From contig NZ_SJPW01000002.1 of assembly GCF_007860125.1 (NCBI RefSeq), positions 907,768-971,767 on the forward strand: 64,000 nt of DNA, in the 5' to 3' direction. Positions 32,648 through 42,697 of this stretch are shown in pieces. The notes below the pieces were generated by a model. That model had not been told where the DNA came from, made no database searches, and saw only the letters and a program-made list of their open reading frames with translations. Origin of the DNA: Rubripirellula tenax. GTDB taxonomy: Bacteria; Planctomycetota; Planctomycetia; Pirellulales; Pirellulaceae. The position numbers were made by a program, and so were the translations under genes. Each line of letters begins with the position of its first letter. Within the stretch, counting starts at the first letter, position 1.

Positions 32648-33617
32648 CTTTCGCGCCGCCGGCATCGATTGATTGTTGCAGCGAATCCAAAATCGTCTGC
32701 GTGTCGATGGCCTGGCGTTGATAACGAGCCAGTGATTTGTCGCCGACAAGTTTTGTGATCATGTTTCGTTCTTGATGACCTTCGAACGTCTCGGATTGGA
32801 CGGTTCCCGCGGCATCGTGAATCCAGCATCTGGCGGGACGATCGGGCCAAGGCCGCGTGAAGTCGTCACAGATCAGCGACGATTCGCTGCCGGCGATCTC
32901 GAACCATTTGCGAGTCGCCGTGTCGTAACCACAACTAAGCGTTGCGGTGACGTCATCTCCGAAGCCCATTATCGCTGTCAATCGCTGTGACACCCCGTCA
33001 ATCATGACGGCATCCGCCGATACCCAAAGCGGCAACTTGCCGGTTGCAAACCGAACCAGTCCGCCGGCGTACCAACCCAAGTCCAAGATGCATCCGCCAC
33101 CCAAAGTTGCATCCAAACGGTGGTCGTCGGATTGGAACGGTTGAAAGAAGGAAACCGATGCGCTGATGTGACCCAACTTCCCGAATCGTTGATCATCCAA
33201 CCAGCCCACAAAGGCGTCCGTGCGATCGTGGTGCAACCATCCTGTCGCATCGAGCCAACGGACGCCGGCATCGCGACACGCGTCATCCACCGCGATCGTC
33301 TCGGCGACCGAGACTGTCAACGGCTTCTCGCACAAGACGTGCTTCCCAGCTTGCGCCGCGGCGATTGCCCACTCGGCGTGCATCGACGGCGGCAACGAAA
33401 TGTAGACCGCGTCGACATCATCTCGCTTCAGCAATCCCGCGTAACCTTCGACGCCCGCGCCGATACCGTACTGATCGCCATACCACCGCGCTCGTTCGCC
33501 CGAACGACTTGCGATCGCCGTGACTTCGACGCCCTCGGTCGACTGCAAGTCAGCAACCAAACGGCGAGTGATCCGTCCGGTGCCGATGACGCCGAAACGA
33601 GTGATGGAACCAGACAT
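32625..33617 (-). CDS. Gfo/Idh/MocA family oxidoreductase
   Basis: This 330-residue NAD(P)-dependent oxidoreductase has an N-terminal Rossmann domain (FGVIGTGRITRRLV near residue 8) with the family signature CEKPLTVS near 95, in which the Lys is the catalytic residue. The remainder is the alpha/beta C-terminal domain. The family oxidises or epimerises sugars and related compounds; substrates vary and cannot be told here. Its location beside a sugar phosphotransferase hints at nucleotide-sugar metabolism, though the genes converge and are not an operon. Confidence 0.88.
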   Translation of the reverse strand: MSGSITRFGVIGTGRITRRLVADLQSTEGVEVTAIASRSGERARWYGDQYGIGAGVEGYAGLLKRDDVDAVYISLPPSMHAEWAIAAAQAGKHVLCEKPLTVSVAETIAVDDACRDAGVRWLDATGWLHHDRTDAFVGWLDDQRFGKLGHISASVSFFQPFQSDDHRLDATLGGGCILDLGWYAGGLVRFATGKLPLWVSADAVMIDGVSQRLTAIMGFGDDVTATLSCGYDTATRKWFEIAGSESSLICDDFTRPWPDRPARCWIHDAAGTVQSETFEGHQERNMITKLVGDKSLARYQRQAIDTQTILDSLQQSIDAGGAKVSTPRPF

Positions 33618-34226
33618 GAATTTTGGAAGGCTGATGAAGGACGCCGGATGATATCAATTGAATTCGCGGCCGAATTCTCCCCACCGCCTAGCAGTGGTGG
33701 TCACTCGTCCCGCCAACCATGGCGGGTACGGCCACACGCATGCGAACGTCCGAAGTGTAACGAATCTGAGTTTTTTGATGTGATACGCAAACCACCACGA
33801 TCGCTATCCAACAAACGAAGCAGGTTCCGAGACGACGTCAAGCGAATCATGGCGAACGTCAGGGCGACTCACTTTTTCGAAATGTGCAAAGCCCAAAAAC
33901 ACAACCGACAGTGGCGATGCAGAGACACGCTTCTTCATAGAAATTGCCGTCCCCGGGTTCAAACGCACCTCGTTGTAACTGGAAAATGTTTTGCCAGACC
34001 GAGACGCCATCTGCTCTAGGTGGAATCGGTTTTCCAAGATACATTGCTCGGCTCAGTGGCAAACCGCCTGGATGGATCCTTTCGTGCGTCTTACACGGCG
34101 TGCCTGACAAGATGTTGGGCAATTGCCCTGTTTACTTTCGTGGCAGCGTGCCGCGAAGTTAGCAGGCAAATTCACCTCAATGGACTGAGGCGTTCGTTTG
34201 ATGGACGGCTCGGTAAGGAAACCAAC
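33618..34226. promoter_or_regulatory. 609-base region upstream of the CsrA fusion gene; no coding gene seen
   Basis: I find no believable gene on either strand. The short ORFs here have atypical codon use and overlap each other. It contains a perfect 12-bp palindrome at 34117-34128 (GGGCAATTGCCC), 99 bases before the csrA-domain start, which could be an operator. A long leader is compatible with RNA-level control, which would suit a CsrA-family gene, but no structured RNA family is recognised. Confidence 0.4.
34215..34219 (+). promoter_or_regulatory. Ribosome binding site with a GGA core before the CsrA fusion gene
   Basis: AAGGA lies 7 bases before ATG 34227 and decides this start over the earlier in-frame one. 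CsrA proteins bind GGA motifs, often over ribosome binding sites, so this GGA may also be an autoregulatory site. That second role is inferred only. Confidence 0.55.
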
Positions 34227-34988
34227 ATGCTGGTACTTTCTCGCAAAGCCGACCAAAGCGTCCACTTCCCCAACCTTGGAATCAAGGTTGAAATTCTTAG
34301 CGTCAATGGGAAGACCGTGAAAGTCGGTGTGGACGCCCCCCGAGAGGTCGCAATTCTTCGCGGCGAAATCGATCGCGTCGAAGCGGAACAGGCGTCGACA
34401 AACACCTCTTCGCAAAATCCTGAAGAGCGCCATGAACTTCGCAACCAAATTCATACAGCCAAGCTTGCCCTGCACATGCTGCAGCGACAACTCGATGCGG
34501 GCGACACGGACAAAGCGGAAAAGACGCTTACGCGTGCGTTGGGGGCGTTGAGCAATTTGGATCAGATGGCGACTGTTCCCGTTGGCGTTCGCAAGGAACT
34601 TGGAAAGGATTCCCCGTGCCGTGCATTGGTTGTCGAAGACAACATAAACGAGCGTCAGTTGATGAAGGGCTTCTTAGAAATGTGCGGCTACCAAGTCGAC
34701 GCGGTTGGCAACGGCCACGCGGCGCTGGGTTACTTGGCGGAAAATTCGCATCCCGACATCGTACTTTTGGACGTCAACATGCCCGGCTTGGACGGCCCCA
34801 GCACCGTGTCCGCGATTCGCAGCAACCCGGCCTACAACGGGATCAAGTTGTACATGGTCAGTGGCGAAGATCAGGATGGCGTTAACGTGACGGTCGGCGA
34901 GCATGGCATTCAACAATGGTTCAGCAAACCACTGGACCCCAGCTTATTCGCAAGCGATCTTGCCAAGTCGGTCGCCGTCAGCGCCTGA
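34227..34988 (+). CDS. CsrA - DHp-like hairpin - receiver fusion protein
   Basis: This 253-residue protein joins three parts. Residues 1-57 are a CsrA/RsmA RNA-binding domain: the MLVLSRK start, then AILRGEI near 42-48, where Leu4, Arg6 and Arg45 match RNA-contacting positions of known CsrA. Residues about 66-114 resemble a histidine-kinase dimerisation/phosphotransfer hairpin, with HELRN at 69-73. Residues about 131-250 are a complete receiver domain: Glu137/Asp138, phospho-acceptor Asp182, Ser212 and Lys234. CsrA normally works as a free small dimer controlling mRNA translation, so here RNA binding could be set by phosphorylation. It opens a signalling cluster. Domain ends are solid; the DHp call and the regulatory logic are inference. 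Confidence 0.88.
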   Translation: MLVLSRKADQSVHFPNLGIKVEILSVNGKTVKVGVDAPREVAILRGEIDRVEAEQASTNTSSQNPEERHELRNQIHTAKLALHMLQRQLDAGDTDKAEKTLTRALGALSNLDQMATVPVGVRKELGKDSPCRALVVEDNINERQLMKGFLEMCGYQVDAVGNGHAALGYLAENSHPDIVLLDVNMPGLDGPSTVSAIRSNPAYNGIKLYMVSGEDQDGVNVTVGEHGIQQWFSKPLDPSLFASDLAKSVAVSA

Positions 34989-35065
34989 TTTCGCTTCACT
35001 GCCTGACTTCGCTTCGATTTGTCGGCGATGGTTGAAACGTACTCAAAACGAAATGGATTTCGATC

Positions 35066-35404
35066 ATGACAGCGACGGATAGCGGTGCGTGTCCTGCCAG
35101 TCTAAGCACCCTCGAGCAATCATTCCTGGCGGATTCGTCGGGCGAGTCGATGCAAGCGAGCGTCAAACAGATTCATTTCTACATCGACTTGCTAGATCAG
35201 TTGCGCAGCGAAGCGATTGAAAGGTTTCCTGAGTCGGCAGCGATCCGGTCCTCCGTGACGTTGCATGCTTGGAACAATTTGCTAAACAACGCCATCATTT
35301 CGCTTGATTGCTTGGACGGAATGCTGGCGACCGATCGAAACGATGCCGCGATCCAACTACTGCCTAGGGCGGTCCGATCGCTGCGCGGGCTTGGGATTCA
35401 TTAG
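35066..35404 (+). CDS. Small protein with a stand-alone DHp-like helical hairpin
   Basis: This 112-residue protein follows the CsrA fusion by 77 bases on the same strand. Residues 67-110 align without a gap to residues 69-112 of the CsrA fusion, with 13 identities in 44 positions including the leading His, Asn at +4 and a regular leucine pattern. It has no ATPase, receiver or RNA-binding domain. It may be a phosphotransfer intermediate or a dimerisation partner. Its N-terminal 30 residues are low in complexity. I recognise no family; the assignment rests on the alignment with its neighbour. Confidence 0.65.
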   Translation: MTATDSGACPASLSTLEQSFLADSSGESMQASVKQIHFYIDLLDQLRSEAIERFPESAAIRSSVTLHAWNNLLNNAIISLDCLDGMLATDRNDAAIQLLPRAVRSLRGLGIH

Positions 35405-35438
35405 TGAAATGATGAATCCGAAATCGGACGACAGTTGG

Positions 35439-38400
35439 CTAGCCGAGGTCGGCTAGCCGTTTGACTAGCTCGTCCGGATCGATGGGCTTCGTCATGTGAC
35501 TGTCGAAGCCGGCTTCTTCGGCTTTGATCATGTCCCCGGTTTGGCCATAACCGCTCAGGGCGATCAGGTACACGTCGGCGTCGGGGCACGCGGCGCGGAA
35601 TTGCTGGGCGACTTCGTAACCGGTTAACTCTGGCAAACCGATGTCGACCAAGGCAATCGATGGCAAGATTTGAATCAAAGCGGTCAGCCCGGCACGACCG
35701 TCCGGGCAAGCGGTGACCTGGTAGCCTTCCAGTTCCAAGAAATCCTGCAGCATCTCGCGAGCGTCCTCGTTGTCTTCGATCAATACGATTGGGATCGGAC
35801 CGCTATGGGGCACGCGATCCAAACGCGGGGCTTCGGTAACCTGCTGCTCCTCGACCTCCTCTTCCGTTAGCGGTAACCGAATCGTGAAAGTGGATCCTTG
35901 GCCCAGACCTGGGCTGCAGGCGGTGATCGTGCCTTCGTGACGTTCGATCAGAGATCGGACCACGGTCAATCCCAGTCCCATGCCGCCTTGGCTTCGAGCC
36001 AATTCGCTATCGGATTGGACGAACATATCAAATACGTTCTCGACCAAGCCGGATTCGATCCCACGGCCATTGTCGATCACCTTCACAATACACTGGCCGT
36101 TATAGCGGCGAAGCGACAGAGTAATCTCGCCACCGTCATCGGTGTACTTGCACGAATTGGCAAGCAAATTTTCAACCACCTGCAGCAATCGCGATTCATC
36201 TCCCATCACCGTCACCGGTACTTTGGGAACCTTCACTTTCAAACGGTGACCGGCTTCTTCAACGCGAGACTGCATCGCGTCGCGGGCGTCCGCCAACACG
36301 TCTCGCATGTCCAACGGTTTCATTTCATAAACGACCTTGCCTTGGGTCACGCGTGAAACGTCAAGCAAGTCTTCCAACAAACACGTCATCTGCTCAGTTT
36401 GGCGGTCGATCGTCTTCATCGCCTGTTCGCGTTGTTCGATGGACGCGTCGGGGTGATGAACCAATTTGGTCGCATGACGAACCGCAGCCAACGGATTTCG
36501 CAACTCGTGAGACAACGTTGCCAGAAACCGGTCACGTTGTTCCACGGCTTCGGTCAAACCCTGCTCGAAAACCTTTCGCTTAGAAATATCTTGCACCACT
36601 GCGATTGCGAACTGAGGTTCCCCCGTGGGGTCTCGCTGCAACGACACGGTCAAGGAAATCCATACCAGATCGCCGTCCTTTCGCACGTATCGCTTTTCAA
36701 GTGAGTAGCGGTCGATCTTCCCTGAATTCAAAGCGTCATACTTTTGTTCGTCCAGTTCCAAGTCGTCTGCATAGGTAACGTCCGTGAATGTCTTCGTGAG
36801 CAATTCTTCCCGGTCGTAACCCAGGATCGCGCAGAGTCGGTCGTTGACGCGCAGCCACTGGCCGTCCGCCGCGACGTGCGCAATCCCGACGGCGGCGTTG
36901 TCAAACGTTGCCCGAAAACGAGCTTCTGCATGCTTCGACTGGGTGATGTCCAGCAGAGTCAAAACGACGCCCATGCGAATGGATTCCCCACGATAAGGCA
37001 GCACTCGCATCAGGAAGTGGCCTCCATCGGGCATTCGAATTTCTTCCTCGTAACGCTTGTCGTTCTGCAAAACGTCCGTCAGTTTGTCCATTAGGTCGTC
37101 GGACGGGATGTTGTGCGAAAATCCCGTAATGCTACGTCCGACATCGGAAGTGATCAGGTTGAACGCCTTGCCCATCCGAGAAGTGAATTTTCGAATGCAT
37201 AGTTCTTCATCTAAGAACAGCGTGTGAACATCGGTGCTGTTAAGCAGGTTGTCCATGTCCTGGGTCAACTCCGTCAGCTCCACGATCTTGTTTTGGTACT
37301 CCGCGTTGACCGTGTACAGTTCTTCGTTGACGCTGTGCAGCTCTTCATTGGTCGATTGCAACTCTTCGTTGGACGCCACCATTTCTTCGTTGGTCGCTTG
37401 CAGTTCCTCGTTGCTGGACTCTAGCTCTTCAATCGTCGCTTGCAGATTCTCGCCACTGTGGCGAAGTTCGGTTTCCAGCAAACGAATTCGATTGCGAGAC
37501 AAATCGTCGACGATCATCGCGCCGGCGGCGACCGCGACTTCCGTCGGGTCCTGCGTCGTTGGTTGCACCGAGTCGTTGATCGGTTGCCGTGCAACAAAGG
37601 AATAGTATCCACCGCCAGTGCGATGCAGAATTCGCCGGACCGTAACCCGAAAAAGAGAGTCTGCGGCTGCGGGCTTGGTGGCTTCGCCTGTGCCGGGAAT
37701 TTTCACAAAAACGCGGTCGAATGTGACCTTCTCACCTGTCCTAGAAGCCTGGTGAATCGCGCCGATGATCATCGTTCGCAAATCCGTCGGCAACATATCC
37801 AGCACGTTGTTGGTGGCCCGTCCCGTCGGCAACTTGACGATCTGGTTCAGATCACCGAACGAGTGCACCAGTTCGTTGCGATCATTCATCAGAAACGCGG
37901 TCGGCACGAAATCGTTTAGCATCACGTCATACGCGTTCATCAGTTCACGATCGCTGACTGCGACCGGCGTGGAATGCGTTCGGATTGAAAACTGATTCGC
38001 CGACGCGTCGATCTGGGCACGGTTCTGCATCGGCCCGCGACCAGCGGGAAGACGCAGGTCCGCAGTCAGTCGGATGTCACGTCGTTTGCGACTAACCCGC
38101 CATGCTTTGTCGACAACATCGAACTCTTCGATCAAATCTCCGGTCGTTTCACTGGGACCCAGAAACAGCGTTCCACCGGTTTTCAGAGCAAAGTGAAACA
38201 GTGAAAGCACTTTCTTCTGGGCCAGGGGCTGCAGATAGATCAGCATGTTGCGACACGTGATCAGATCCAATCGCGTAAACGGAGCGTCTTTGATTAAATT
38301 GTGTGGCGCAAAGACGACCATGTTGCGAATCTCGGGCACGATTCGCCAACCGTCGTTGGTCCTTGAAAAGTACCGATTCTTTCGCTCCAACGAAACATCG

Positions 38401-39545
38401 ATGAACGCAGCGTCGGGATAGACACCGGCGCTGGCGAAATCGAGCGACGTTTTATGAACATCGGTGGCGAAGACGCGAACGTTGATCGGCCGATTCATCG
38501 CCGTCAATCGCTCGTGAATGATGATCGCCAGAGAATACGCTTCTTCGCCGGTCGCGCAAGCCGCCGACCAAACGCGGATCTCTTGCTGCTCAGGGATTTT
38601 CAGGATGATCTCCGGAATCACCTTCTCTTCAATGACTTTAAATGCTTCGATGTCGCGAAAGAACTGTGTCACGCCGATCAACAGATCCTTGTACAACAGG
38701 TTTAGCTCTTCGGAGTCTTCGAGCACATTGGCGACGTAATCGTCCAGACTATTGGCATGGTTGAGTAGCAATCGCCGTTCGATTCGGCGAACGACCGTCG
38801 TCGGTTTGTAGTACGTAAAGTCGATGCCGTAATGGTCACGAATCTCTCGCAAGACTCGCTTGATCCCGTCTTCGGGAACCTCGGGAACGATGACTTTGGC
38901 CCCACCGTGTTGCAACGGATGCTTGACCAGCCGCAGCAACGAATCGGCGATTTCGATGGGGTTGCCGATGATATCGACGACGCCGGTATCTTGCGAATTG
39001 ATTGGCATACTATCGAAAGCCGACGAAACAACGTCTTGAGTGATGACCAGCCCGCCGGCATTGTGGACGTCGCGAACACCGCGTGAACCGTCGCTTCCGC
39101 TTCCGGACAAAACGATCGCGATCGCGTTGGATTCGCAATCGTGCGCCAACGATCGAAAGAAGTGATCGATCGGTAACGTCAGCATTTCACCCCGATCTTT
39201 GTCCGTGATCAGCAGGCACCCTTCCGAAATAATCATCTCTTTGCCGGCCGGGATCAAATAGACCGCGTTGCGTCGGACTTCCATGCCATTGGTGACGCGG
39301 AACACGGCCATCTCGGTATGCCGACGAATGATTTCATCCATCAAGCTTTTGTGGTCCGGTGACAAGTGCTGGACCACAACAAACGCCATACCAGTATCGC
39401 CGGGCAGTCGATCAAACAATTGTTCGAGTGCCTCCAGACCACCCGCGGATGCGCCGATGCCAACGACGTAAGTGGGGCTTTTGTCGTCCGCACCCGCGGG
39501 CTGTTGGCGAGCCGCAGATTCAAGTTGGTTGGTCAGGTCGTCCAT
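35439..39545 (-). CDS. CheB-CheR-PAS hybrid histidine kinase with a terminal receiver
   Basis: This 1368-residue protein runs, in order: a CheB methylesterase domain (about 25-210; GASAGG Ser, a His in QHLSPDH, Asp in [10 protein letters not shown]), a CheR methyltransferase (about 225-490; [16 protein letters not shown] is the SAM site), PAS-like regions, a Glu/Asn-rich coiled coil (about 700-780), further PAS/PAC domains to about 990, HisKA with SHELRNPL (about 1005-1085), a HATPase domain with the N, G1 and G2 boxes, and a receiver (about 1250-1368, phospho-Asp in ALVDIGLP). No chemoreceptor is nearby, so methylation targets are unknown. It points toward and converges with the CsrA-fusion genes. 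Confidence 0.92.
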
Positions 39546-39608: not shown

Positions 39609-42506
39609 CTACACGGGCTTCACAGGTGTGATCCGGACACCGAGTGCGTCGATGGCGTTGGCGTCGTCACAGATCGGCGTGAACGTAACCGTGATCTTTT
39701 CGTCGTCGCCTTCGGGCGCGAACGCCTTGGATGTCACGGACTTGCGTTGGGCAATCGCTACGGCACTCGCCTTTTGAAGCAATTTGGCAAGCGGCTCGCT
39801 GAACAAGTCTGCATCGGTCTTTCCCACTATTTTTTCACAGGTCGTCGCGAAAACATCTGCGAAAGCTTGATTGGCAAAGGTGTAGGCCCCCTCCGTTTTG
39901 CGGATCGCGATTCCAATGTGCAAAGGTTCGATCGCCGCCCGAAATTGCTCCACACTGCGATTGAGCTGACGTCGGTTCTTTTTGATGTTCGTGATCTCGA
40001 ATAGCTCCAACACCACGCCGTCGATCCGACCGCGCGACCGATAGGGCTGGATCTGCATCTGATACCACTCGCCATTGTCAGTCTTGATCTCCTTCTCGAA
40101 CGGTTTCTGCGTCTTCAAGACCGACGAAATATCGTCGGCAAGTTGGGGGCGATTCAACCGGTGCGTGAACGAGCCGAAGGAACGACCAAGGTCTTGCGGC
40201 AGCAAGCTGAACACGCTCGCGATCGAGGGTGTGAACTTACGTACGTTCATATCGGAATCCAGGAACAGCAACCCGGCGTCCATGTGCTCGAACAAGTGGT
40301 TCATGTCATCGGTCAGTTCCGTCAACTCGCCAATCTTCTTTTGGTATTCGCCGTTGACCGTGTACAGCTCTTCGTTGACGCTGTGCAGTTCCTCGTTGGT
40401 CGATTGCAACTCTTCATTGGATGCAACCATCTCTTCGTTCGTTGCCTGCAATTCCTCGTTGCTGGTCTCAAGTTCCTCGATCGCTGACTGCAAGTTCTCT
40501 CGCATCAGCGTCAGCTCCGACTCCAACGTTGTCAGCCGATCGCTTGAAACGTCGCCGACCTGCAATTCCGTGCTACCATCGCTGATGATCGGATCCATCG
40601 GTGTAAATGTGATCATGAAATATGTCGCGTCATTTTCTTTGGAAACAATGGGCTGGATCCCCATCCGCAGAATCGGCGAGTTTTCGTCCTCATCCATCTT
40701 CAGTCCGTTGAAGTGAACCGTTTCGAGTTCGCGCGCGGCGCGATGCAACCCACCCGACGCGGCGGCACGCAGACGCGGCGGGAACCACTCGAGTGCGTCG
40801 GCGGTCGGTCGCCCGGGCTTGAGTTGCACGTAGGTCATCGCATTCCCAAACAAGTGGACCAAACGGCGCTGATCATCCAACAACACACCGGCGGGCATGT
40901 GAGTTTCGAGCAGTTGGTCGTACGCGTTTGCCAGCGACCTATCCACCATCGACGACGCCGTTTGGTTTGCCGCGACCTGACGACTGCTGCTGAGGCTGAG
41001 CCCACGATCATTCGGAATCGCGAGACTTAATTCGCGAGTCAATCGAACGTCGCGTCGCTTGCGATAGATCTTCCAGTGCCGGTCTACGGTTGCGAACTCG
41101 GCAGCAATTTCTCCCAAAGTTTCACTGGGTCCGAGCCACAACACCCCATTCTTCTTCAATGCAAAGTGGAACAGCGTGATTACGCGAGCTTGCACTTCGT
41201 TTTGAAAGTAAATCAGCATGTTGCGACACGACACAAAGTCCAGTTTCGTAAACGGTGCGTCGACGATCACGTTGTGCGGTGCAAAGACGATCATCTGCCG
41301 AATTTCAGGCGACAACTGGTACCCGTGGGCAGTCCGCGTAAAGAAGCGGCGACGGCGTTCCAGAGTCATCTCGGACAAGTTGTTTTCGATGTAGATTCCT
41401 GCACTGGCAATGTCGAGCGAAGCTTTGTGGACGTCAGTGGCAAAAATTTTGACGTCCAATTGCAGGTTCAGCTCTTCGAGCAACTCGTAAACCAAGATCG
41501 CCAGCGAGTACGCTTCTTCCCCTGTCGCGCAACCGGCCACCCAGGCTCGAAACTGGCAACCCGGTTCAAGGTCTTTCAGCAGGTCGGGCAGCACTTCCAA
41601 TTGCAAACGATCGTAGGCGGCCGGATCGCGAAAGAACTGGGTAACACCAATCAACAGATCTTTGTAGAGCGAGTTGAGTTCATCGCGATCGTCGTCTAGC
41701 AGTTCCACATAGTCATCGAAGTCGACGGATTGGCTCAGCAGCACGCGTCGTTCGATTCGTCGCATCACGGTGGCGGATTTGTAGAAAGCAAAGTCGATTC
41801 CACATTCGTCTCGCAACAATCGCAGCAGCCGATTCATCGAGTCCTCGTCAACGACAATCGGCTTATCGATCAACTGGGTTTTGTCGGCGGTGGGGAAGCC
41901 GGAGTATCGAATCAGGGTTTCGGCGATGCCTTCGGGCCCGAGCACCATATCGACGACGCCCGTGTTCTCGGCGCTGCGGGGCATGCCATCGAACTTCGAC
42001 GTTTCAACACTCTGCGAAATCACGAGTCCGCCCGCTTCGTGGACGCTGCGAATTCCGCGAGAACCGTCGCTGCCGGTGCCTGACAAAACGACCGCGACGC
42101 TCTGGGCTTGCCAGCTCCTTGCTAAAGAATGGAAAAAAATGTCGATCGGCAGCGACAGTCCATCACTGGGGTTTTTGCAGACCAGGTGCAGCTGGTCGCC
42201 ATCGATGGTGATTTCCATCTTCGGAGGGATCAAATAGATATGGTTCGCCTGAACCTGCATGCCCTCGTCGACGCGATGAATGGGCATGTCGGTCCACCGT
42301 GCTAACAGCTCGTCCATCAGACTCTTGAAGTCGGGGGACAAGTGCTGAACGATGACGAAGGCCATTCCGGTATCCCAAGTAAGATTTCGGAACAACCGTT
42401 CGATCGCTTCCAAACCACCCGCCGACGCGCCCACGCCGACCACATGAGTGGGAATATCCGAGTGGGTGGTCCGGTCGGATTCGAGCGATTCTTTTGGAGC
42501 GGTCAT
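39609..42506 (-). CDS. CheB-CheR-PAS protein without a kinase domain
   Basis: This 965-residue protein repeats the front part of the neighbouring hybrid kinase: CheB (about 20-205, GASAGG and SGTGSDGSRG), CheR (about 220-490, [15 protein letters not shown]), PAS-like segments, and an almost identical Asn/Glu-rich coiled coil near 680-760. It ends after one more PAS-like region, with no HisKA, HATPase or receiver domain. The coiled coil probably pairs with that of the neighbour. The two genes are adjacent on one strand, 63 bases apart, and are clearly paralogues. ATG 42506 is the start; upstream in-frame residues are unlike the family. Confidence 0.9.
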   Translation of the reverse strand: MTAPKESLESDRTTHSDIPTHVVGVGASAGGLEAIERLFRNLTWDTGMAFVIVQHLSPDFKSLMDELLARWTDMPIHRVDEGMQVQANHIYLIPPKMEITIDGDQLHLVCKNPSDGLSLPIDIFFHSLARSWQAQSVAVVLSGTGSDGSRGIRSVHEAGGLVISQSVETSKFDGMPRSAENTGVVDMVLGPEGIAETLIRYSGFPTADKTQLIDKPIVVDEDSMNRLLRLLRDECGIDFAFYKSATVMRRIERRVLLSQSVDFDDYVELLDDDRDELNSLYKDLLIGVTQFFRDPAAYDRLQLEVLPDLLKDLEPGCQFRAWVAGCATGEEAYSLAILVYELLEELNLQLDVKIFATDVHKASLDIASAGIYIENNLSEMTLERRRRFFTRTAHGYQLSPEIRQMIVFAPHNVIVDAPFTKLDFVSCRNMLIYFQNEVQARVITLFHFALKKNGVLWLGPSETLGEIAAEFATVDRHWKIYRKRRDVRLTRELSLAIPNDRGLSLSSSRQVAANQTASSMVDRSLANAYDQLLETHMPAGVLLDDQRRLVHLFGNAMTYVQLKPGRPTADALEWFPPRLRAAASGGLHRAARELETVHFNGLKMDEDENSPILRMGIQPIVSKENDATYFMITFTPMDPIISDGSTELQVGDVSSDRLTTLESELTLMRENLQSAIEELETSNEELQATNEEMVASNEELQSTNEELHSVNEELYTVNGEYQKKIGELTELTDDMNHLFEHMDAGLLFLDSDMNVRKFTPSIASVFSLLPQDLGRSFGSFTHRLNRPQLADDISSVLKTQKPFEKEIKTDNGEWYQMQIQPYRSRGRIDGVVLELFEITNIKKNRRQLNRSVEQFRAAIEPLHIGIAIRKTEGAYTFANQAFADVFATTCEKIVGKTDADLFSEPLAKLLQKASAVAIAQRKSVTSKAFAPEGDDEKITVTFTPICDDANAIDALGVRITPVKPV

Positions 42507-42697
42507 GGTTCTCTTGGGGTTGAATCGCGTGAATGCGGATGCACTCAACCTTGGAATGCAGTGAAACGCATTTTTCATACCAAGCAAAACACTGGGAATA
42601 TTTTGGCGGAATACTCGTATCAGCCTGCCAAAAAATTATCCGACCGTCCAAGGATGCGGAAATATTTTTTCCAGTCCGTGTCACTCCGCTAGTAATT

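Follow-up and report, generated by a model that had tools for sequence, protein, structure and literature searches.

The window analysed here is a stretch of 64,000 nucleotides of Rubripirellula tenax (contig NZ_SJPW01000002.1), a member of the class Planctomycetia. We found that a gene on its forward strand, at 34227-34988, encodes a protein of 253 aa plus stop, in a frame that is uninterrupted across exactly these positions and in which a CsrA domain, a helical hairpin and a receiver follow one another. The CsrA domain occupies residues 1-48 (34227..34370, forward strand) and matches Pfam PF02599 at 3.3e-15 (56.2 bits, where the cut-off is 27). The receiver occupies residues 131-248 (34617..34970, forward strand) and matches PF00072 over residues 134-239 at 4.9e-19 (69 bits against a cut-off of 30.2). 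The hairpin, residues 65-115 (34419..34571, forward strand), gave a HisKA match over residues 68-113 of 14.5 bits, under the cut-off of 26.9. The initial annotation had read a CsrA domain, a kinase-type DHp hairpin and a receiver in one protein; the profile search bore out the first and the last above threshold and left the middle one below it. HELRN, Asp182, Ser212 and Lys234, the residues named by that annotation, are at the positions it gave in the translation and the alignment. R6, R45 and E47 lie in the CsrA domain, R45 corresponding to the RNA-contacting R44 of Escherichia coli CsrA; HELRN forms residues 69-73 of the hairpin, with His69 at 34431-34433 and Asn73 at its end; and the receiver has the acidic pair Glu137/Asp138, the phospho-acceptor Asp182 (34770-34772), Ser212 and Lys234. 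Pfam reported no HATPase_c domain in the protein, and no ANTAR match among the four families reported. The protein scores 51.3 and 49.6 bits against the NCBIfam csrA equivalogs, whose cut-offs are 73 and 70.1. The genome (8 Mb, 42 contigs) holds six CsrA genes and one FliW gene, the latter less than 500 bases before a stand-alone CsrA gene. Two of the other CsrA genes of the genome (L006, 155 aa; L003, 140 aa) have long C-terminal extensions.

Structure prediction of all 253 residues was too poor to be read (mean pLDDT 45), but the hairpin came out well by itself: in a single-sequence AlphaFold2 model of residues 59-120, helices at 65-91 and 94-115 were obtained with a mean pLDDT of 86.7. Its likeness to the DHp hairpin of kinases was investigated with hhalign. 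A profile of hairpins (A3, 46 of 73, chosen for His and Asn) was aligned to 47 HisKA segments of kinases from the fetched loci, chosen by their SHELRxP motif, with a probability of 97.5 over 45 columns, and His69 fell on the phospho-His; all 115 hairpins, unselected, gave 97.0, and four decoy comparisons (reversed, coiled-coil) scored 7 or less. The match rests on the H-box, because the probability fell to 1.2 when the H-box was masked; the 14 His-less hairpins alone gave 0.4. When isolated hairpins were compared with Pfam, HisKA was matched by 20 of 46 (best 4e-6), TPR_19 by 3 of 46 (best 9.5e-4) and SPOB_a by 3 of 46 (best 0.017); a firm Spo0B-type label was considered and rejected. A search of PDB sequences with the hairpin profile gave 34 matches at E<=10, to repeat, designed and other proteins and to no kinase, the best being pentatricopeptide repeats (3e-5). 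Foldseek gave 306 matches at E<=10, none at 0.001 or better; among the 50 listed, all with E>1, none was titled a DHp domain and many were generic hairpins such as Rop, so that this comparison was uninformative. The motif reads His-x-x-Arg-Asn-x-Leu and has no proline of the kinase H-box, which is likewise missing from Spo0B, a DHp-hairpin phosphotransferase that, like ChpT, works in a phosphorelay. The label of a kinase-type DHp hairpin is partly supported: His aligns on His, but the Pfam score is below its cut-off, the match is lost on masking, and both the proline and an ATPase domain are missing. Judged from sequence, the element is likely a diverged DHp-type phosphotransfer hairpin.

A taxonomic survey of the architecture, proposed with the initial annotation, was carried out with a profile of 15 members against 397 genomes of the class, and the full-length matches were fetched. 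After the removal of 28 duplicates from 145 open reading frames, at least 117 distinct proteins (counting that of the window) remained, spread over at least 99 of the 397 genomes; both figures are lower bounds, because they count the matches listed with six candidates scored per genome, and weaker full-length relatives may be missing. Thirteen genomes carry two to four fusion proteins each, and the hairpin region is longer than 40 residues in 115 of the 117 proteins. When 392 genomes from across the phylum were searched with the single protein, full-length relatives turned up at 18 places in 16 genomes (its own included), all from the window's class, which contributed 40 of the 392 genomes sampled. 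A profile of 90 of the 117 proteins (A2), run against the same number of phylum genomes, found 16 genomes at E<=1e-30, again all within the class, and no fusion protein in the 352 genomes of other classes with six candidates scored per genome. All 90 members scanned with Pfam matched CsrA at E<=1, and 16 of the 90 full-length members had weak HisKA matches (best 1e-4). PDE8A_N of Pfam was matched by 17 of the 90 (best 2.8e-6). A scan of genome contigs with the window's protein alone gave three loci, the match covering the receiver only, and no CsrA annotation occurred among the 10 plasmid matches listed of 1037.

The residues expected to matter for both outer domains were conserved at 97-99% across the family. 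Among the 117 proteins, R6 was kept in 116, R45 in 115 and E/D47 in 115; in the receiver, Asp138 was kept in 116, Asp182 in 116, Ser/Thr212 in 115 and Lys234 in 114. In the hairpin, His69 was found in 101, Arg72 in 80, Asn73 in 101 and Leu/Ile75 in 113, with His69 and Asn73 together in 98. The absence of a conserved His from homologues had been named beforehand as a ground for giving up the hairpin reading; with His69 in 101 of 117, this ground does not apply. His69 is missing in 16 proteins, nearly all of which retain the receiver and CsrA residues. On a quick tree, built with the hairpin columns excluded, 10 of these 16 form one group, many of whose members are the second paralogue of a tandem locus. 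Six changes of the His state are needed on the best tree, three of them forced by starred branches. Two of the 16 (L134 and L140) have no hairpin altogether, and two others (L170 and L171) were scored as His-less yet have a His three residues earlier. In L170 position 69 is Gln, the hairpin is otherwise intact and a plain kinase adjoins the gene.

CsrA binds hairpins with GGA in a hexaloop, and a putative site of this kind lies directly before the fusion gene. At 34212..34223 (forward strand) the leader reads GGT-AAGGAA-ACC, a 3-bp stem with GGA in a hexaloop over the ribosome-binding site; AAGGAA stands 7-12 bases before the ATG, and the hairpin ends 3 bases before it. The RNA fold of the leader contains the 3-bp stem, and the overall fold is unremarkable (z -0.34; 64 of 200 shuffles fold equally well). 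The element was then followed through the family in 111 distinct leaders, of which 103 have GGA in place and 8 were excluded; other genes of the same loci, with start codons set by rule, were used as controls. A GGA hexaloop with three Watson-Crick pairs was found in 22 of 103 fusion leaders versus 2 of 258 other genes, and 81 of 103 leaders were without the full set of three pairs in the strict register. The three pairs were counted 41, 72 and 72 times in the 103 leaders, against 26, 54 and 59 expected from composition, and each exceeded all 2000 column shuffles, which ignore kinship. Stems varied: GGT/ACC occurred 14 times, GGA/TCC three times, GAA/TTC twice, and GAT/ATC, GGC/GCC and CCT/AGG once each. 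When the register was slid to a 7-base loop, one pair was above all shuffles and another was reached by 15 of 2000; with a 5-base loop, two pairs were reached by 6 of 2000. This excess fits several loop sizes or shared descent. A 6- or 7-base loop was present in 34 of 103 leaders versus 12 of 258 controls, and a loose count of three or more pairs gave 66 of 103 versus 63 of 286; we relied on the strict register, because the loose count mixes in unrelated hairpins.

Within the own genome, the five other CsrA genes have no such leader hairpin, as judged by eye. Across the 8 Mb, the pattern GGTAWGGARACC was located at two sites, this leader and one place away from a gene start, so that this single pattern gave no second gene; its rarity says little, because the reversed control occurs once. 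A search of 33600-35500 against Rfam gave one weak, unrelated match (E 0.8). As far as the sequence can tell, the hairpin would let either the CsrA domain of this protein regulate its own gene or a different CsrA of the cell do so. That it is the target of another CsrA, or ordinary Shine-Dalgarno context, we consider fairly unlikely: six CsrA genes and one FliW in the genome, together with the weakness of 3-bp hairpins (z -0.34), would suit such a reading, but the hairpin is enriched relative to the remaining genes of these loci, and its pairing in the hexaloop register goes beyond shuffles, both of which argue against it.

The initial annotation had pointed to a neighbouring kinase, and one is indeed present. 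Convergent with the fusion gene, at 35439..39545 on the reverse strand, Pfam identified a hybrid kinase of 1368 aa with the order CheB-CheR-PAS-HisKA-HATPase-receiver, which is the probable partner of the fusion protein. At 39609..42587 (reverse strand, start codon uncertain) lies a second CheB-CheR-PAS protein, without a kinase domain according to Pfam; such a protein was also seen in some of the tandem loci. Across the family, histidine kinases, often of this type, lie near most of the fusion genes: one was present within 5 kb for 93 of the 117 proteins, 63 of these 93 also having a CheB/CheR protein, and 24 have no kinase within 5 kb, many of them cut by contig ends (the short duplicate loci L056-L083 were excluded from this synteny count). 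When only the 92 well-flanked proteins were considered, each with 3 kb or more of sequence to either side, a kinase lay within 2 kb in 69 and within 500 bases in 60, a CheB/CheR protein lay within 2 kb in 49, and no kinase was found within 5 kb in 15. The 69 kinases occupy all four relative positions and orientations. HisKA is matched 40 times in the 8 Mb of the own genome, from which we calculate that chance would produce such linkage in a few percent of cases.

The type of the kinase was related to the state of His69. Among all 117 proteins, those with His had a hybrid kinase in 78 cases, a non-hybrid kinase in 5 and no kinase in 18, and those without His had 4, 6 and 6, respectively (Fisher p 1e-4, with descent ignored). 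We then considered the 78 of 117 proteins with a kinase within 1 kb that was not cut off by the end of the locus, unless already seen to be hybrid. In these clean loci, His occurred with a hybrid kinase in 70 and was missing beside a non-hybrid kinase in 6, with a single case each of His with a non-hybrid and of no His with a hybrid. The former is L115, whose kinase reads as non-hybrid because, by eye, its receiver lies directly behind it in a different frame; L173 breaks the association. The tree offers two or three independent pairs only, too few for the association to reach significance. Nevertheless, the co-occurrence suggests a relay that ends with His69 and Asp182, since in a four-step relay phosphate from a hybrid kinase would have to pass through a second His on its way to Asp182, and phosphate from a plain kinase would not.

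The fusion, its family, the conserved residues, the kinase linkage and the leader hairpin statistics are observed; from them we infer, in the following scheme, each transfer of phosphate, the change in RNA binding and the autoregulation. The fusion protein would be a response regulator with RNA binding as its output. The hybrid kinase next door would autophosphorylate on its His, and the phosphate would move on to the receiver at the C-terminus of the kinase; His69 of the hairpin would take it from there, serving as a histidine phosphotransferase, and would hand it to Asp182 of the receiver in the same protein, so that the last two of the four relay steps would take place within one protein. 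Phosphorylation of the receiver would alter, in either direction, the binding of the CsrA dimer to GGA hairpins on mRNAs. The own leader would be among the targets, where bound CsrA would block the ribosome, leading to negative autoregulation. In our opinion the best explanation is a phosphorelay of four steps whose last member is a CsrA protein that binds RNA, with autoregulation at the leader; our confidence in it is about even. As to the proposal of the initial annotation that phosphorylation switches mRNA binding, kinase linkage, the co-occurrence of His and hybrid kinases and the hairpin in the own leader point to it circumstantially. In these bacteria phosphorylation probably acts directly on the translation of selected mRNAs, because an RNA-binding regulator, a His-bearing hairpin and a receiver share one protein that adjoins a sensor kinase.

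Ordinary two-component wiring is the first alternative to this relay. The kinase would then phosphorylate Asp182 directly, and the hairpin would be a former DHp kept for dimerisation, with its His idle. A confident two-helix unit weakly like HisKA is what such a history might leave, and the two members without a hairpin, as well as the 16 of 117 without His that nearly all keep receiver and CsrA residues, agree with it. However, His69 and Asn73 are each present in more proteins than a plain dimerisation helix should need, and loss of His goes with a receiver-less kinase in 6 of the 7 His-less cases having a clean partner; we regard direct wiring as unlikely. It is improbable that the receiver works as a phosphate sink or as a switch between proteins, with the CsrA domain mainly a dimerisation module or scaffold without an mRNA regulon of its own. 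The sole pattern tried gave no candidate target beyond the own leader, which would suit this reading, but the RNA-contact residues R6 and R45 are kept in 116 and 115 of 117 proteins, and the leader hairpin is enriched, with pairs beyond shuffles. An artefact, in which two genes were joined through an assembly or frame error, has a negligible chance and nothing was found in its favour: the fusion is real and neither chance nor a frame error, because 117 distinct proteins from 99 genomes, both minimum counts, have CsrA and then the receiver in one frame.

Returning to the relay and taking all parts together, a phosphotransfer His, the final phospho-Asp and a CsrA output would lie in one chain, and mRNA translation would be under the direct control of a CheB-CheR-PAS hybrid kinase, with no decoy RNA, FliW or transcription factor in between; the His of the hairpin would be lost where the kinase has no receiver, and the protein would repress its own translation through the GGA hairpin at its ribosome-binding site. 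This joint reading is put forward tentatively, at somewhat less than even confidence.

CsrA activity is otherwise known to be set by titration, through decoy RNAs and FliW. If CsrA does act here as a response regulator, the link from sensor kinase to translation would be short and reversible. Moreover, the family supplies natural contrasts, His-bearing proteins beside hybrid kinases and His-less ones beside plain kinases, in some cases in tandem within one locus, so that the phosphorelay idea is open to a direct test. The CsrA of E. coli is not known to have a receiver. A table in section 4 of a review (PMC12471899) nevertheless places this CsrA among the orphan response regulators, under RNA-binding domains. 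ANTAR and CsrA are both named among the RNA-binding outputs of response regulators (PMC2222644, 2007, citing Galperin 2006), so receiver-CsrA proteins are already a listed class. The fusion family is real and conserved, and it is a variant of the CsrA-output response regulator: receiver and CsrA share one protein in both, but PMC2222644, in the portion available, names the class only and has no His hairpin, kinase linkage or leader element. Like stand-alone CsrA/RsmA (PF02599), the fusion protein has a CsrA domain above the Pfam cut-off, the RNA-contact arginines and, over the ribosome-binding site of its gene, a putative GGA hairpin of the CsrA type. It differs in its 253 aa, with hairpin and receiver, as against 60-70 aa, and in falling below the csrA equivalog cut-offs.

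In ANTAR response regulators such as EutV, a receiver likewise governs an RNA-binding output (PMC7602753), but ANTAR works through antitermination and CsrA through effects on translation or stability, and no ANTAR domain was matched in the fusion. With the dimeric histidine phosphotransferase ChpT (PMC3433190) the protein has in common a DHp-like hairpin, a phospho-accepting His (inferred in the fusion) and the lack of autokinase activity; the turn of the hairpin is two residues in our model and eight in ChpT, and, unlike ChpT and Spo0B, the fusion has no ATPase-like domain and its hairpin is joined to its own receiver and output domain. In the BarA/GacS-UvrY/GacA-decoy RNA-CsrA cascade, two-component signalling also ends in CsrA activity, which is set there via the transcription of decoy RNAs, (PMC4682653), whereas here CsrA itself would be phosphorylated. 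In the open-access literature, little was found on CsrA in the window's class and no experimental study of a CsrA-receiver fusion protein; the hairpin, the kinase linkage and the leader element go unmentioned in the available portions of sources such as PMC12471899, PMC2222644, PMC7602753, PMC4682653, PMC5936718, PMC2698875, PMC4395418 and PMC3433190.

Several unusual members and relatives were also observed. Two short proteins, L134:14151-14720 (190 aa) and L140:2752-3309 (186 aa), consist of CsrA and receiver without the hairpin, and each of these loci also contains a His-bearing member. In six tandem loci (L041, L099, L102, L109, L128 and L130) a fusion protein that has the His is paired with one that lacks it, and between one and three CheB-CheR proteins are encoded nearby or in the interval. 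The receiver of L052:6489-7319, the same gene as L022, keeps Asp182 without the acidic pair and Lys234; its hairpin reads HQAYEK, and no kinase lies within 5 kb. At 340 aa, L174:4743-5762 is the longest when set beside the other members. At L181, L185, L180 and L184 the hairpin is joined to a receiver or a region resembling one, with no CsrA domain seen; one example among these has HRIRNQLN and a receiver in a 198-aa frame. A profile match in G307 likewise covers hairpin and receiver without CsrA. Because such proteins occur, the hairpin-receiver unit may also exist alone.

Finally, a small open reading frame of 112 aa lies downstream of the fusion gene, at 35066..35404 on the forward strand, and is a marginal candidate for a stand-alone copy of the hairpin (HAWNN). 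It was the top non-fusion match of the hairpin profile (E 0.076), hardly ahead of an unrelated protein at 0.078, and a search of 116 further genomes from the order found nothing like it. Its C-terminal half contains LHAWNNLLNN, with His and Asn in register with the hairpin. Directly before its ATG, a hairpin CGAAA-TGGA-TTTCG was noticed by eye.
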